From assembly GCA_024687845.1 (NCBI GenBank), contig JAILEL010000267.1, positions 1 to 5,519 on the forward strand: a DNA stretch of 5,519 bases. The letters run 5' to 3'. Below, in pieces: positions 2,360-5,253 of this stretch (position 1 is the stretch's first letter; each line of letters opens with the position of its first letter). Under the pieces are notes generated by a model. That model saw only the letters and a program-made list of their open reading frames with translations. It was not told the origin of the DNA and did no database searches. The position numbers and the translations under genes are program-made. The DNA is from Eubacterium sp. GTDB lineage: Bacteria > Bacillota_A > Clostridia > Lachnospirales > Lachnospiraceae.

Positions 2360-2992
2360 CTATTGTATTAATTTAGTACCGCAATTAGTACAAAACATAT
2401 CTCCTTCTTTATATTTTGTGCCACAATTCATACAGAATTTATATGTACCAGTATCAGGTTGTCCACCCATATTATTATATTCAGGTAACTGGGTTGCTTG
2501 CTGAATCACATAGGATATGATTCCCATATCAGCAGATATATTTCTGTACATTTTTATGCTATCAAAAACAGTAAAAGCCCCTCCTAAAGTTTTTCTCCAC
2601 CAGATAGAAAAAGTCATATCATCGTTATAACTGAAATCATATATAATTCTGTTATGACTTATCATTGGAGCCCCATTTCCATTCAATTCAACAGTCATAT
2701 TCATTCTTGTCAATTCTGGAATAATGGAATGTGTTAATTCTGATAGCGGAACCATATTGTAACACTTAAAGGTGTAATCTCTGAATTTATATGCTTTTAT
2801 ATCTAATAGCTTATTTTTTATAAGCCATCCAGCTCCAAGACCCAACGGAAGGCAAAATACTATTGCTACAACCCCACAAGCTAATCCAGTTATTCCTCCA
2901 ATAATTCCCGTTATCCAATAAATAATATTGTATTTTCTCCCACCGTCATCAACTGGTTCCATGGTAGTTTTAATAATATTAGTAGTTTCCAT
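2360..2992 (-). CDS. Membrane protein with C-terminal zinc ribbon, first gene of a riboswitch-controlled operon
   Basis: This is a 210-residue protein that I do not recognise as a named family. It has a polar N-terminus, then a hydrophobic stretch at about 22-58 (YWITGIIGGITGLACG followed by VVAIVFCLPLGLGAGWLI). That is long enough for one long or two short membrane helices and is Gly-rich. A mixed alpha/beta domain of about 120 residues (about 62-170) follows, with an exposed WW pair at 131-132, then a short linker and a C-terminal zinc ribbon with C187, C190, C201 and C204. The start at 2992 is chosen because AGGAGGAGGTG sits directly upstream at ideal spacing. The in-frame ATG at 3064 would put 24 extra residues inside the riboswitch aptamer and across its terminator. 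The TAG stop lies 23 bases before the next gene. Both proteins of the operon pair a zinc ribbon with a membrane anchor, which suggests they act together, possibly in one complex (inference). Confidence 0.9.
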   Translation of the reverse strand: METTNIIKTTMEPVDDGGRKYNIIYWITGIIGGITGLACGVVAIVFCLPLGLGAGWLIKNKLLDIKAYKFRDYTFKCYNMVPLSELTHSIIPELTRMNMTVELNGNGAPMISHNRIIYDFSYNDDMTFSIWWRKTLGGAFTVFDSIKMYRNISADMGIISYVIQQATQLPEYNNMGGQPDTGTYKFCMNCGTKYKEGDMFCTNCGTKLIQ

Positions 2993-2997
2993 TCTGA

Positions 2998-3008
2998 CAC
3001 CTCCTCCT
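2998..3008 (-). promoter_or_regulatory. Strong ribosome binding site that fixes the start at 2992
   Basis: The minus strand reads AGGAGGAGGTG, then TCAGA, then ATG. The second GGAGG is seven bases from the ATG. This site lies just downstream of the leader terminator, so translation can begin only on transcripts that read through it. No comparable site precedes the alternative ATG at 3064. Confidence 0.85.
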
Positions 3009-3018
3009 AAACTGATAA

Positions 3019-3051
3019 TAAAAAAGAGTATTGCAGACACTACAACACTCT
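3019..3051 (-). terminator. Intrinsic terminator in the leader, expression platform of the riboswitch
   Basis: On the minus strand, arm AGAGTGTTGTAG (3051-3040) pairs with CTGCAATACTCT (3036-3025). This makes a 12-bp stem with two G-U pairs and a three-base loop (TGT), followed at once by a run of T residues (TTTTTATT). It lies between the cyclic-di-GMP aptamer and the ribosome binding site of the 210-residue protein, the usual place for an attenuator. The first bases of its 3' arm can instead pair with the end of the aptamer, so termination should depend on ligand. Confidence 0.88.
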
Positions 3052-3065
3052 CTAATCTCTGCAAC
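3030..3065 (-). promoter_or_regulatory. Predicted antiterminator pairing
   Basis: GTTGCAGA (3065-3058, minus strand) is the 3' edge of the aptamer. It is complementary, with one G-U pair, to TCTGCAAT (3037-3030), the start of the terminator's 3' arm. The two segments are separated by 20 bases. The pairing cannot coexist with the closed aptamer (which uses TTGC) or with the terminator. Bound ligand should therefore free the terminator arm and switch the operon off. The direction of switching is inferred from base pairing only. Confidence 0.65.
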
Positions 3066-3138
3066 TGGCTGTCATTTCAGATTAACTGACTTTAGACCCT
3101 ATAGCTTTGCGTCCCAGCATTTCTACCGGTTTGCTAAA
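3061..3138 (-). promoter_or_regulatory. Cyclic-di-GMP-I (GEMM-I) riboswitch aptamer
   Basis: The minus strand contains the conserved GEMM-I blocks in order. These are GCAAACC (3134-3128), a hairpin CCGGTA-GAAA-TGCTGG with the GAAA tetraloop, the near-invariant GGGACGCAAAGC starting at 3115, TATAGGGTCTA, a second hairpin whose base is GTCA/TGAC, and finally GACAGCCAGTTGC ending at 3061. GCAA and TTGC at the two edges form the closing helix. The residue before CAAACC is G (3134), the identity expected for cyclic-di-GMP; variants preferring cGAMP carry A there. The final C at 3061 corresponds to the second ligand-contacting base. Cyclic-di-GMP is the second messenger that switches bacteria between motile and sessile states, and in Clostridia this class often controls surface genes. 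Confidence 0.92.
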
Positions 3139-3173
3139 TATCTAATATTTTTCCTTGCTTTTTGACTAAATTA

Positions 3174-3182
3174 ATTATATCA
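3174..3182 (-). promoter_or_regulatory. Extended -10 promoter for the zinc-ribbon/YARHG operon
   Basis: The minus strand reads TGaTATAAT, a perfect -10 hexamer (3179-3174) with an extended TG one base upstream. The -35 position (about 3197-3202) has no good TTGACA match, as is common for extended -10 promoters. Transcription would start near 3167 and leave about 30 bases before the aptamer. The -35 region lies within the left arm of the 3197-3221 palindrome. Confidence 0.65.
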
Positions 3183-3196
3183 TCTATCATTTTTTT

Positions 3197-3221
3197 AATC
3201 ATTCTCTGTGAGAGAATGATT
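3197..3221. promoter_or_regulatory. Perfect 25-nt palindrome, probable operator
   Basis: Arms AATCATTCTCT (3197-3207) and AGAGAATGATT (3211-3221) are perfect reverse complements around GTG. No T run follows on either strand, so it is not a typical intrinsic terminator. Its place between divergent genes and over the -35 region of the minus-strand promoter fits a binding site for a dimeric regulator. The helix-turn-helix protein encoded 90 bp away is the obvious candidate, but this is inference. Confidence 0.6.
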
Positions 3222-3243
3222 TATGCTTTATGGGCATTTTTGA

Positions 3244-3300
3244 TTGAAATATGCCTCTTGCTTGTATTAAACTTATATCTGTTATCATTATGTTTGGAGT
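3244..3300 (+). promoter_or_regulatory. Weak candidate promoter and ribosome binding site for the HTH-kinase unit
   Basis: TTGAAA (3244-3249) followed after 18 bases by TAAACT (3268-3273) is the best -35/-10 pair seen, but it is only a moderate match. Other pairings, such as TTGCTT (3258-3263) with TATCAT (3283-3288), are also possible. GGAGTGA (3295-3301) is the ribosome binding site, with GGAG about 11 bases from ATG 3310, rather long. An imperfect inverted repeat, GGGCAT/ATGCCT (3232-3237, 3251-3256), overlaps the -35 candidate. Confidence 0.3.
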
Positions 3301-3309
3301 GATTATAAA

Positions 3310-3774
3310 ATGAAGAAGACCTATTCAACAAAAGATATATTTAACAGCATTCACGACGGAAATACTATTGATCAGCAGGAAATATCTTTCTATACTGAAG
3401 ATGATTTGAGAAAAGATCTTGAAATGATATCAGCCGATATTGAAAAATACATTACAACTCACAAAACTCCATCTTCTTTTAATGAATTTGCAAGAGAAGC
3501 ATGCATTACCCCTTCTCATCTGAACCAATTTCTAAATGGCAAGAAAAAAATGACTAAGTATTATCTTCTCAGAATTTTTATTACACTCGGATATGATCTT
3601 GACAAAGTAAACTCACTTCTTCAAAGATTTGACGGAAGTTTTCTTTATGCAAGAAACAAGCGTGACTATATAATTATGAACGGAATTGTTGACAAACTTT
3701 CGATTGATGATATAGACTCTGTGTTAAGAGCTCAGGGATTAGAAGCACTGTGTCCAGTCGGAAACTATGAATGA
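3310..3774 (+). CDS. Small XRE-like helix-turn-helix protein, probable regulator
   Basis: This 154-residue soluble protein is probably a DNA-binding regulator. Residues about 56-104 fit a lambda-repressor/XRE-type helix-turn-helix: FNEFAREACITPSHLNQFLN, then GKKKMTKYYLLRIFITLGY. The ITPSHLNQFLNGKK segment matches the usual 'gvs.s.ls.i.nGk' recognition region, and LGYDLDKVNSLL matches the last helix. Residues 84-112 and 119-147 align with each other as a degenerate repeat (for example DLDKVNSLLQR against SIDDIDSVLRA), so the C-terminus seems to duplicate the last HTH helices. The N-terminal 50 residues are polar and unassigned. It lies 68 bp upstream of the kinase gene on the same strand with no terminator between, so co-transcription is likely. 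The nearby palindrome is a plausible target. It could instead be mainly a kinase partner or substrate; the sequence does not decide this. Confidence 0.85.
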   Translation: MKKTYSTKDIFNSIHDGNTIDQQEISFYTEDDLRKDLEMISADIEKYITTHKTPSSFNEFAREACITPSHLNQFLNGKKKMTKYYLLRIFITLGYDLDKVNSLLQRFDGSFLYARNKRDYIIMNGIVDKLSIDDIDSVLRAQGLEALCPVGNYE

Positions 3775-3874
3775 TATATCTCTTATATCTCTGGGTTTAA
3801 CTGAAGAACTGAAAAATCAATGCTATATCCAGAGGTTGTCTTATGGAAAATCCATATCTGCAAAAAATAAATAG
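3767..3874 (+). CDS. Possible 35-residue overlapping ORF bridging the HTH and kinase genes
   Basis: ATG 3767 lies five bases before the HTH gene's stop, in another frame, and opens a 35-codon frame that ends inside the kinase gene, 32 bases past its start. Its N-terminus is MNDISLISLG. Only a weak GGA precedes it. It could be a coupling ORF that carries ribosomes from one gene to the next, or a chance frame. I favour chance, because the kinase gene has its own ribosome binding site. Confidence 0.15.
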   Translation: MNDISLISLGLTEELKNQCYIQRLSYGKSISAKNK

Positions 3875-5099
3875 CATCATAGAGTCTTCAAGTGACCTAG
3901 AAATGATAGACAGGTCATACTTTAGTAATGCAAAAAACATCTCTGGAAAAATGCCTGTAATAAAGGTAAAATATAAGGGTACCCCTGCTATTCTAAAAAT
4001 CCTTACCCAAGAACAGACATCATTATATCAGCATCTTATCCCAATCCATAATGAACGTCTCGAAAGAATATTTGAAGTAAATTATTCTGATGGAGTCTTC
4101 TATTCAGTAAATGAATTTATCCCCCGTCCCAGCAATTTCAATTATAAGCTTTTTGATGTTCTTTATAAGCCTGAAATTGATTCCCTTACCTTATATGAAT
4201 ACATAACCAATTATAGTATGTTTGAAAAAACTACTGATCAGATACATTTTGTGCCTGAAAGTATTGCGCTAAGAATAGTTTTAGAACTGATAGAAGGACT
4301 TGAGGAACTAAATGCAAATGGACTGGTTCATGGTGACCTTTCCCCTCAGAATATTCTGCTCACAAATGCTCTAAATAAAGATCAAACAAGCAAAAAATCA
4401 GATAAATCAATAAATTGTCAGATTAGTAATTACAGCCTGAAAATAATCGATTTCGGTGCAATGCGCCCTCATAAACCCAGTGATCATCCGGTAACAGAGG
4501 TCGTTGGCACCAAAGAATTCCTGGCTCCTGAGATTCTTGCCTATAATATCCCTAATGACAGAATCGACATCTATTCCATCGGTTGCCTTTTACACTACAT
4601 ATGTCTTGGAATGTCCCCTACTGAATGTGGACCTGACTATGCCAAAGCTTTTCTAAGTCCTGGTGTATATAACATCATTAAGATATGCAACAATGAATAT
4701 AGTTCAAGATACAGCAGTCTGACACAGCTCAAGAAAGCAATAAAAAAAGAGATACAATTTCCATCCAGCACTTCTGGCAAATTCTTCTCTCATTTACCAG
4801 GTTTCAGAACTAATAAATTGTGGAAGAAAATAATTGCATCTCTTTTCTATTTATGGCTTATTGCCGATATTCTTATCGCACTGCTTATGGGCGACTTCAG
4901 CTTTAATTCGTGGTTTTTTATTGCATTTAGTATCCTGGAGGTTATCTTTGTATGCGATGCATTTGATATCGGAGGCAAGATACGAAGCTATAACACTTTC
5001 CGAAGAGAATATCCGATACTCCGTTTTCTGATCAAAATGGGTATAATGTTCTTCCTTCTTGTCGTTTACTGGATACTCTGGTATGCAATCAAAGGATAA
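3843..5099 (+). CDS. Membrane-anchored Ser/Thr protein kinase-like protein
   Basis: This 418-residue protein has an N-terminal kinase domain (about 20-305) and three C-terminal membrane helices (about 328-349, 355-375, 394-415). The visible motifs are the beta-3 lysine K52 (AILKIL), a hinge near NEFIP (90-94), the catalytic loop HGDLSPQN (163-170, D165 and N170), the metal-binding DFG (203-205), the activation-loop end FLAPE (226-230), the helix-F aspartate in DIYSIG (D242), and a late arginine, R289. The full set predicts an active kinase phosphorylating Ser/Thr at the inner membrane face. It is a non-RD type, with Gly before the catalytic Asp, and no GxGxxG loop is apparent. The alpha-C glutamate is not certain. 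The C-terminal membrane part has no large outside domain, unlike PASTA kinases, so any signal is probably sensed within the membrane or through a partner. AGAGG seven bases upstream supports ATG 3843, and in-frame stops lie just upstream. It is probably transcribed with the HTH gene. Confidence 0.9.
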   Translation: MENPYLQKINSIIESSSDLEMIDRSYFSNAKNISGKMPVIKVKYKGTPAILKILTQEQTSLYQHLIPIHNERLERIFEVNYSDGVFYSVNEFIPRPSNFNYKLFDVLYKPEIDSLTLYEYITNYSMFEKTTDQIHFVPESIALRIVLELIEGLEELNANGLVHGDLSPQNILLTNALNKDQTSKKSDKSINCQISNYSLKIIDFGAMRPHKPSDHPVTEVVGTKEFLAPEILAYNIPNDRIDIYSIGCLLHYICLGMSPTECGPDYAKAFLSPGVYNIIKICNNEYSSRYSSLTQLKKAIKKEIQFPSSTSGKFFSHLPGFRTNKLWKKIIASLFYLWLIADILIALLMGDFSFNSWFFIAFSILEVIFVCDAFDIGGKIRSYNTFRREYPILRFLIKMGIMFFLLVVYWILWYAIKG

Positions 5100-5213: not shown

Positions 5214-5253
5214 AACGGGAAGCCCCTAAATAAGAGCTTCCCGTTACTTTTTT
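5214..5253 (+). terminator. Intrinsic terminator after the kinase gene, probably bidirectional
   Basis: AACGGGAAGC (5214-5223) pairs perfectly with GCTTCCCGTT (5236-5245) over a 12-base loop. ACTTTTTT follows on the plus strand. On the minus strand the same stem is followed by a shorter T run (GTTTTAAG), so it may also end transcripts arriving from the right. It lies 115 bases after the kinase stop. The stretch 5100-5213 shows no other convincing feature. Confidence 0.85.

Follow-up and report, generated by a model that had tools for sequence, protein, structure and literature searches.

A probable GEMM-I riboswitch attenuator precedes a two-gene zinc-ribbon/YARHG membrane protein operon in a Lachnospiraceae Eubacterium

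The window, meaning the whole stretch of 5,519 nucleotides that was analysed (Eubacterium sp., Lachnospiraceae, whose habitat is probably the gut or rumen), carries on its minus strand a two-gene operon preceded by a riboswitch leader, and on its plus strand a divergent regulator candidate and a kinase gene. The features referred to below are the following.

2992-2360, minus strand: gene 1, a 210-residue DGGRKYN membrane protein with a C-terminal zinc ribbon (PF13240, 34.9 bits)
2336-147, minus strand: gene 2, a 729-residue zinc-ribbon/membrane/YARHG protein (PF13308, 90.7 bits; PF13240, 25.2 bits)
3182-3174, minus strand: extended -10 promoter element TGATATAAT, read from the sequence
3145-3057, minus strand: c-di-GMP-I (GEMM-I) riboswitch aptamer (RF01051)
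3135, minus strand: A at the position equivalent to Vc2 G20, the selectivity base (Rfam position 11, cmscan alignment)
3065-3058, minus strand: candidate antiterminator 5' strand GUUGCAGA (constrained folding, length scan)
3061, minus strand: ligand-contacting C, equivalent to C75 of the cGAMP RNA, C87 of Cd1 and C92 of Vc2 (J1/3, by alignment)
3053-3023, minus strand: intrinsic terminator hairpin of 14 pairs with a U6 tract at 3025-3020 (terminator scan)
3037-3030, minus strand: candidate antiterminator 3' strand UCUGCAAU, common to the terminator (constrained folding, length scan)
3008-3000, minus strand: ribosome-binding site AGGAGGAGG, 7 nt before the ATG at 2992
3197-3221, no strand: perfect 11-bp palindrome between the divergent promoters
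3310-3774, plus strand: helix-turn-helix regulator candidate of 154 residues (HTH_3, 19.2 bits, below the cut-off)
3843-5099, plus strand: Ser/Thr kinase of 418 residues with a hydrophobic C-terminal part (PF00069, 78.8 bits)

The original prediction had placed two membrane proteins of unknown function behind the leader, and the zinc ribbons, membrane helices and YARHG domain expected of such an operon were all recovered by Pfam searches and structure models. The gene 1 product has two hydrophobic helices (residues 19-39 and 41-72 in the model) followed by an alpha/beta part; its family alignment holds nine sequences, and its structure model (pLDDT 79.1) gave no match to the PDB with E under 0.001. 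Gene 2 follows after a gap of 23 nt and is preceded by AGGAGG. Its product comprises, in order, an N-terminal zinc ribbon, a Q-rich linker, one hydrophobic helix, a beta-rich part and the C-terminal YARHG domain, with both families above their curated cut-offs (YARHG 90.7 against 27, Zn_Ribbon_1 25.2 against 25), one recognised zinc ribbon and a structure model of low confidence (52.9); we propose that this protein faces the envelope. "Unknown function" was a correct description, although a close architecture had already been described: an N-terminal zinc-ribbon pair, a membrane helix and a YARHG domain, in 73 instances, of which the function was left open in 2012 (PMC3355149). Gene 2 shares this architecture type of the zinc-ribbon/transmembrane/YARHG proteins (PF13308), as does the product of another riboswitch-associated locus, L184, considered further below; the published proteins carry a zinc-ribbon pair, whereas one ribbon is recognised in gene 2.

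The leader reads, from its 5' end, as a promoter element, an aptamer, a terminator and a ribosome-binding site. The claimed extended -10 element is present in sequence, and the assignment of a promoter to it would place the transcription start near 3167 on the minus strand; sigma-70 scans of 2900-3400 and of the whole window, however, leave the element unlisted because it has no recognisable -35. The intrinsic terminator and the strong ribosome-binding site that had been predicted were both borne out, the former as a scan hit in which three bases of the U6 tract close the stem. Two terminator-like sites were found in 2900-3400 against 0.1 expected, and three in the whole window against 2.1, which is no clear excess. 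The terminator lies 3' of the aptamer, as in an attenuator. The full leader folds only modestly better than its shuffles (z -1.52). As for the palindrome at 3197-3221, a role as operator or bidirectional terminator is possible.

Identity of the aptamer is settled by the covariance model. RF01051 aligns over its full length (model positions 1-87 of 87) with 66.6 bits (gathering score 35 bits) and E 6.6e-12, computed by cmscan for the whole window against 4227 families, so that the minus-strand match anticipated by the original prediction was obtained and the aptamer is present beyond chance; two weaker overlapping matches of the same clan were dropped by the tool, and the three other matches of the window to these families up to E 1 all fell under their gathering scores. 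The conserved blocks include the GAAA tetraloop, GGGACGCAAAGC and AUGACAGCC/GUUGC. In an alignment of 13 related aptamers, which takes in the window and whose structure is the RNAalifold consensus of the same alignment and is therefore favoured by it, 97.4% of cells are paired against 79.9% in shuffles, nine of 15 pairs are changed on both sides against 5.5, double-changed cells number 33 against 10.1, and the covariation score is 0.574 against 0.208, which supports the pairing of P2 and P3; in controls with the alignment slid, paired cells reached at most 41.5%. The claim that all conserved GEMM-I blocks are present holds for the blocks and for the length of the match, with one departure: at model position 11, where the consensus is a conserved G, the window has A (3135).

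The recurrence of this arrangement was followed through relatives of gene 1. A peptide-pattern scan of genome contigs gave 16 loci, of which L003 and L004 look nearly identical. A first genus scan used the full gene-1 alignment and returned mostly lone zinc ribbons, for which reason it was repeated with the part of the alignment that precedes the ribbon. Among 397 genomes of the family of G001, the metagenome-assembled genome (2.5 Mb) that carries locus L001, six had a gene-1 match, four of them new, which brings the gene-1 loci to 21 including the window. A GEMM-I aptamer at gathering score adjoins gene 1 in three of the 21: the window, L007, where it lies just upstream of gene 1, and L001, where it lies between gene 1 and the next gene. 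The latter is cut by the contig end, and its 67 readable residues differ at one position from P0014, a YARHG protein. The chance of two such neighbours among the 20 non-window loci is about 3e-5, a rough estimate made after the fact, and the L001 aptamer is the only RF01051 match in G001, in a genus where 53 of 61 genomes have such matches, up to 13 each. Since the Rfam scan found no adjacent GEMM-I at the remaining 18 loci, the riboswitch link is not general in the gene-1 family. Aptamers overlooked at those loci were considered and rejected, a dedicated model built from the 13 related aptamers giving strong matches only at the window, L007 and L001, and four further matches with E from 0.4 to 2.4. 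No relative of gene 1 was confirmed in viral contigs or in plasmid and phage collections. Three gene-1 relatives that lack GEMM-I (L002, L005, L008) lie amid genes that resemble those of mobile elements, a relaxase-like gene among them.

Upstream of gene 1 in L001, the -10 region and the palindrome align with those of the window; ATATAATT is common to both, the TG is not. Across 203 loci the palindrome pattern upstream of gene 1 recurred in L001 and in no other (the four loci listed being one single L001 place), where the upstream neighbour gene differs from that of the window. Between 3350 and 3428 of L001 there is an apparent degenerate first half of a GEMM-I aptamer, most similar to L007, which scores 47.5 against a shuffle maximum of 41.0 (0/300) and only E 1.2 with the dedicated model. 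From this remnant and the aligned -10 region and palindrome, the common ancestor of the window and L001 may have had a GEMM-I riboswitch before gene 1; in L001 one riboswitch seems to have disappeared before gene 1, while the intact one after gene 1 would have been retained or acquired. Such apparent decay in a relative would also fit an aptamer that has outlived its regulation in the window itself, yet there the conserved blocks, -10 element, terminator and ribosome-binding site are all intact, and we regard a non-functional relic as highly improbable.

The remaining neighbours of gene 1 recur in part. By tblastn, a relative of the helix-turn-helix protein is divergent from the gene-1 relative in L015 (38% over 141 residues) and a weak one occurs in L016 (21%, E 8e-6); kinases of distant similarity (23-26%) are found close to gene 1 in L012, L013 and L016; and YARHG C-termini follow gene 1 in L003/L004, L009, L012, L015 and L093. 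This suggests that the association of gene 1 with YARHG, helix-turn-helix and kinase genes is the older one and that a few lineages later acquired the riboswitch. The operon, the divergent regulator and the membrane Ser/Thr kinase may together form an envelope-sensing module. Beyond the kinase gene in the window there is a strong hairpin at 5214-5245, which the scan lists on the minus strand; followed by ACTTTTTT on the plus strand, it may terminate the kinase operon.

The departure from consensus at 3135 bears on the ligand. Model position 11 lies immediately 5' of the outermost P2 pair and was therefore taken to correspond to A14 of the cGAMP riboswitch structure, in which J1/2 spans A9-A14, P2 C15-G40 and J1/3 G74-C75 (PMC6274999), and hence to Vc2 G20 and Cd1 G11. 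In Geobacter GEMM-Ib RNA the A20G change shifts selectivity from cGAMP to c-di-GMP (PMC6456294), and a crystal structure of a G20A GEMM-I RNA with cGAMP exists and has been used in simulations (PMC6274999). In Cd1 of C. difficile, G11 is described as a selectivity factor and not a hard filter, A or C at this position having no large effect (PMC9262584). The proposal of a riboswitch-controlled operon thus keeps its complete aptamer, its attenuator-type platform and its two-gene zinc-ribbon/membrane/YARHG operon, and is qualified at the pocket base, an A at a published c-di-GMP/cGAMP selectivity factor: as the position acts as a selectivity factor and not as a hard filter, membership of the GEMM-I family stands, while specificity for c-di-GMP is presumptive.

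Sensing of 3',3'-cGAMP by the same attenuator, or of cGAMP and c-di-GMP alike, through the A at the G20 position is the reading that we rank second, and consider unlikely. It draws on the A at 3135, which the aptamer of the closest relative, L001, shares, on the switch of ligand caused by A20G in Geobacter (PMC6456294) and on the G20A-cGAMP crystal structure (PMC6274999). Against it, the same substitution is mild in Cd1 (PMC9262584), and the outermost P2 pair is G-C in the window and C15-G40 in the cGAMP RNA, as the published range is read (PMC6274999). Nor is A rare at this position: of 115 aptamer rows, 114 of them fetched and one the window's own, 17 have it, 93 have G and five are unreadable, so that roughly every seventh readable GEMM-I aptamer of the survey carries A. 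The 17 comprise six of 31 in the genus of G001, one of 33 in the genus of G007, nine of 50 family-wide (a set of high-scoring matches, three of them from G042) and the window; G is found in L007 and in the four further aptamers of that genome.

The enzymes encoded by proxy genomes also weigh against cGAMP. Hypr (cGAMP-type) cyclases are marked by Ser or Thr at one GGDEF position. Of 35 GGDEF matches in G001, the 34 readable at this position have D (30), E (3) or N (1) and none has Ser or Thr, while in G007, for which 15 of 52 matches were fetched and 12 were readable, the residues are 11 D and 1 N; a search for SMODS-type nucleotidyltransferases found none in G001 or G007. The ligand is therefore more likely c-di-GMP than cGAMP, given the softness of the selectivity base in Cd1 and the lack of Hypr residues among the readable GGDEF domains and of SMODS matches in the proxy genomes; c-di-GMP is likely and not certain, because an A at 3135 tunes selectivity between c-di-GMP and 3',3'-cGAMP. 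A broader proposal, in which a subset of gut and rumen Lachnospiraceae GEMM-I riboswitches with A20 senses cGAMP or both dinucleotides and gates a kinase/zinc-ribbon/YARHG envelope module, is speculative and somewhat less likely again; if true, the A20 subset would amount to a cGAMP or mixed-dinucleotide circuit in the Firmicutes, beyond Geobacter. With A at position 20, the identity of the dinucleotide sensed is open to a direct test.

The sign of regulation, to which the original prediction had not committed itself, was approached through folding of transcripts of increasing length. The candidate antiterminator strand GUUGCAGA reaches into the aptamer: it shares three bases with helix P3 and includes C 3061, the ligand-contacting base, which is number 107 in the modelled transcript. 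Without ligand, the antiterminator has a probability of 0.96-0.98 at lengths 138-140, when the transcript is still too short to form the terminator, and a bonus of -6 kcal/mol placed on two junction pairs lowers it to 0.69; at length 142 the same bonus changes antiterminator/terminator from 0.70/0.28 to 0.05/0.92. The modelled effect depends on where the bonus is placed, and it nearly vanishes when a bonus of -9 is spread over all aptamer pairs (antiterminator 0.98 versus 0.96 at length 140, terminator 0.95 versus 0.97 at 144). From length 144 the terminator, favoured over the antiterminator by about 2 kcal/mol, stands near 0.95 whether or not the bonus is applied; switching would therefore have to be kinetic. 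Such a kinetic choice has been described for Cd1, whose antiterminator takes up the equivalent C, C87 (PMC9262584).

In the window the antiterminator duplex is suggestive only: tested against shuffled terminators it falls short of significance, with 36 of 300 doing equally well. Two of the 12 leaders compared fall under 5%, L024 (0/300) and L007 (10/300), and L027 (21/300) and L028 (25/300) lie near that level; the others failed the test (of 300: L142, 58; L133, 88; L184, 101; L137, 117; L001, 136; L172, 171; L151, 264). An antiterminator kept in all leaders is accordingly not supported. L021, which has no terminator between aptamer and gene, lies outside this 12-leader test.

Since the candidate antiterminator would take up the ligand-contacting C, as in the Cd1 OFF switch, the anatomy favours an OFF switch in which ligand leads to termination, and the leader is probably a GEMM-I riboswitch that works by transcription attenuation, most likely an OFF switch for c-di-GMP, with both genes silenced by ligand. 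Without ligand, 3065-3058, including C 3061, would pair with the terminator 3' arm at 3037-3030 and RNA polymerase would read on into the two-gene operon; with ligand, the aptamer would keep 3065-3058, the terminator at 3053-3020 would form and both genes would be silenced. With c-di-GMP as the ligand, the operon module would be reserved for the low-c-di-GMP, planktonic state, and the operon would be tied to the motile/sessile switch. Cd1, which controls the flagellar operon of C. difficile, offers the nearest parallel: a GEMM-I aptamer, a separate terminator, an antiterminator with the ligand-contacting C (in the window a candidate) and OFF logic (PMC9262584, PMC6200980). It differs in having G (G11) at the G20 position and flagella as its target, where the window has A and zinc-ribbon/YARHG membrane proteins.

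An alternative full-leader fold, in which aptamer UGACAGCC pairs with GGUGUCA beside the start codon, would suggest the opposite, translational logic, as aptamer formation could then expose the ribosome-binding site. An ON switch of this kind, or one in which the ligand-bound aptamer prevents termination, has precedents in the Geobacter pilM RNA and in one C. difficile class I locus whose RNA-seq signal rises more than 30-fold with c-di-GMP (PMC6200980). In the window, however, the terminator (from 3053) and the aptamer (to 3057) do not overlap, whereas the corresponding pilM folds are mutually exclusive, and the start region of L007, GGAGGGATAACACTATG, lacks the GGUGUCA partner; we judge an ON switch improbable, below both cGAMP proposals. 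The Geobacter GEMM-Ib cGAMP riboswitches (pilM, pgcA) share with the window the A at position 20 and the aptamer fold; they are described as ON switches, have another outermost P2 pair, and control cytochrome, pilus and polysaccharide genes. The preferred reading remains the OFF switch.

The riboswitch type is well known, and its link to these proteins appears undescribed. The original prediction had not counted the gene pair among the described members of the c-di-GMP regulon, and our search agrees: in the open-access literature no paper was found that links GEMM or c-di-GMP to zinc-ribbon or YARHG genes. By term search, PMC3355149 mentions riboswitches or c-di-GMP zero times and PMC11477304 does not contain "zinc", while in PMC6200980 the word occurs three times, for a zinc-dependent metalloprotease in the passages drawn on. 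The aptamer, terminator, gene families, recurrence and A at the G20 position were computed here, while the ligand, the regulatory sign, the promoter and the role of the module are inferred. An uncharacterised pair of envelope proteins, joined perhaps by a membrane Ser/Thr kinase to judge from the neighbourhood, would be put under cyclic-dinucleotide control, and the riboswitch link provides a handle on YARHG proteins.

Other GEMM-I targets were examined in the same 115 rows, ten of them without a readable gene. A zinc-ribbon motif was present in the first downstream gene in 11: the window, L023 (the same place as L001), L026 (the same place as L007), L028 (from L007's genome), L133, L137, L142, L151, L172, L178 and L184; L023, L026 and L184 had been fetched through gene-1 or YARHG matches and are not independent. 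Of eight proteins tested, five reach the Zn_Ribbon_1 cut-off (L028, L137, L151, L172, L184) and those of L133, L142 and L178 fall under it; in the same Pfam test no zinc-ribbon match was obtained for the kinase of L134 or for L007's second gene. Within the genus of G001, two of 30 rows pass (L137, L151; in three of the 30 no gene could be read), compared with about 0.4% of genes as background, giving P about 0.007 after the fact; the background is for this genus only and derives from 586 zinc-ribbon matches over 159.3 Mb at an assumed density of 0.9 genes per kb. With L184 left out, the motif was found in the first gene of none of 49 family-wide rows (six unreadable; a high-scoring, biased set), and a family-wide link between GEMM-I and zinc ribbons is not supported. 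The findings suggest that in certain Lachnospiraceae genera GEMM-I RNAs repeatedly target membrane proteins with zinc ribbons. L184, from G042, encodes a zinc-ribbon/YARHG protein of 566 residues (YARHG 85.8 bits), whose gene begins 106 nt past a GEMM-I aptamer, and is a further instance of a gene-2-type target; among the matches listed for the 397 genomes, compared by eye, it was the only GEMM-I/YARHG neighbour.

Several further first genes were noted in this survey. In the genus of G001, GEMM-I directly precedes a Ser/Thr kinase in L134 (Pfam), and in L155 a PP2C-like gene followed by a zinc-ribbon kinase (by eye), hinting at phospho-signalling under cyclic-dinucleotide control in this genus. 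In L151 the aptamer stands before an SPFH/Band-7 protein with C-terminal zinc ribbons. The first genes after GEMM-I in L021, L039, L041, L152, L153, L165, L166, L170, L177 and L180 have GFTLVEL-like starts, motifs that we take to be type IV pilin signals.
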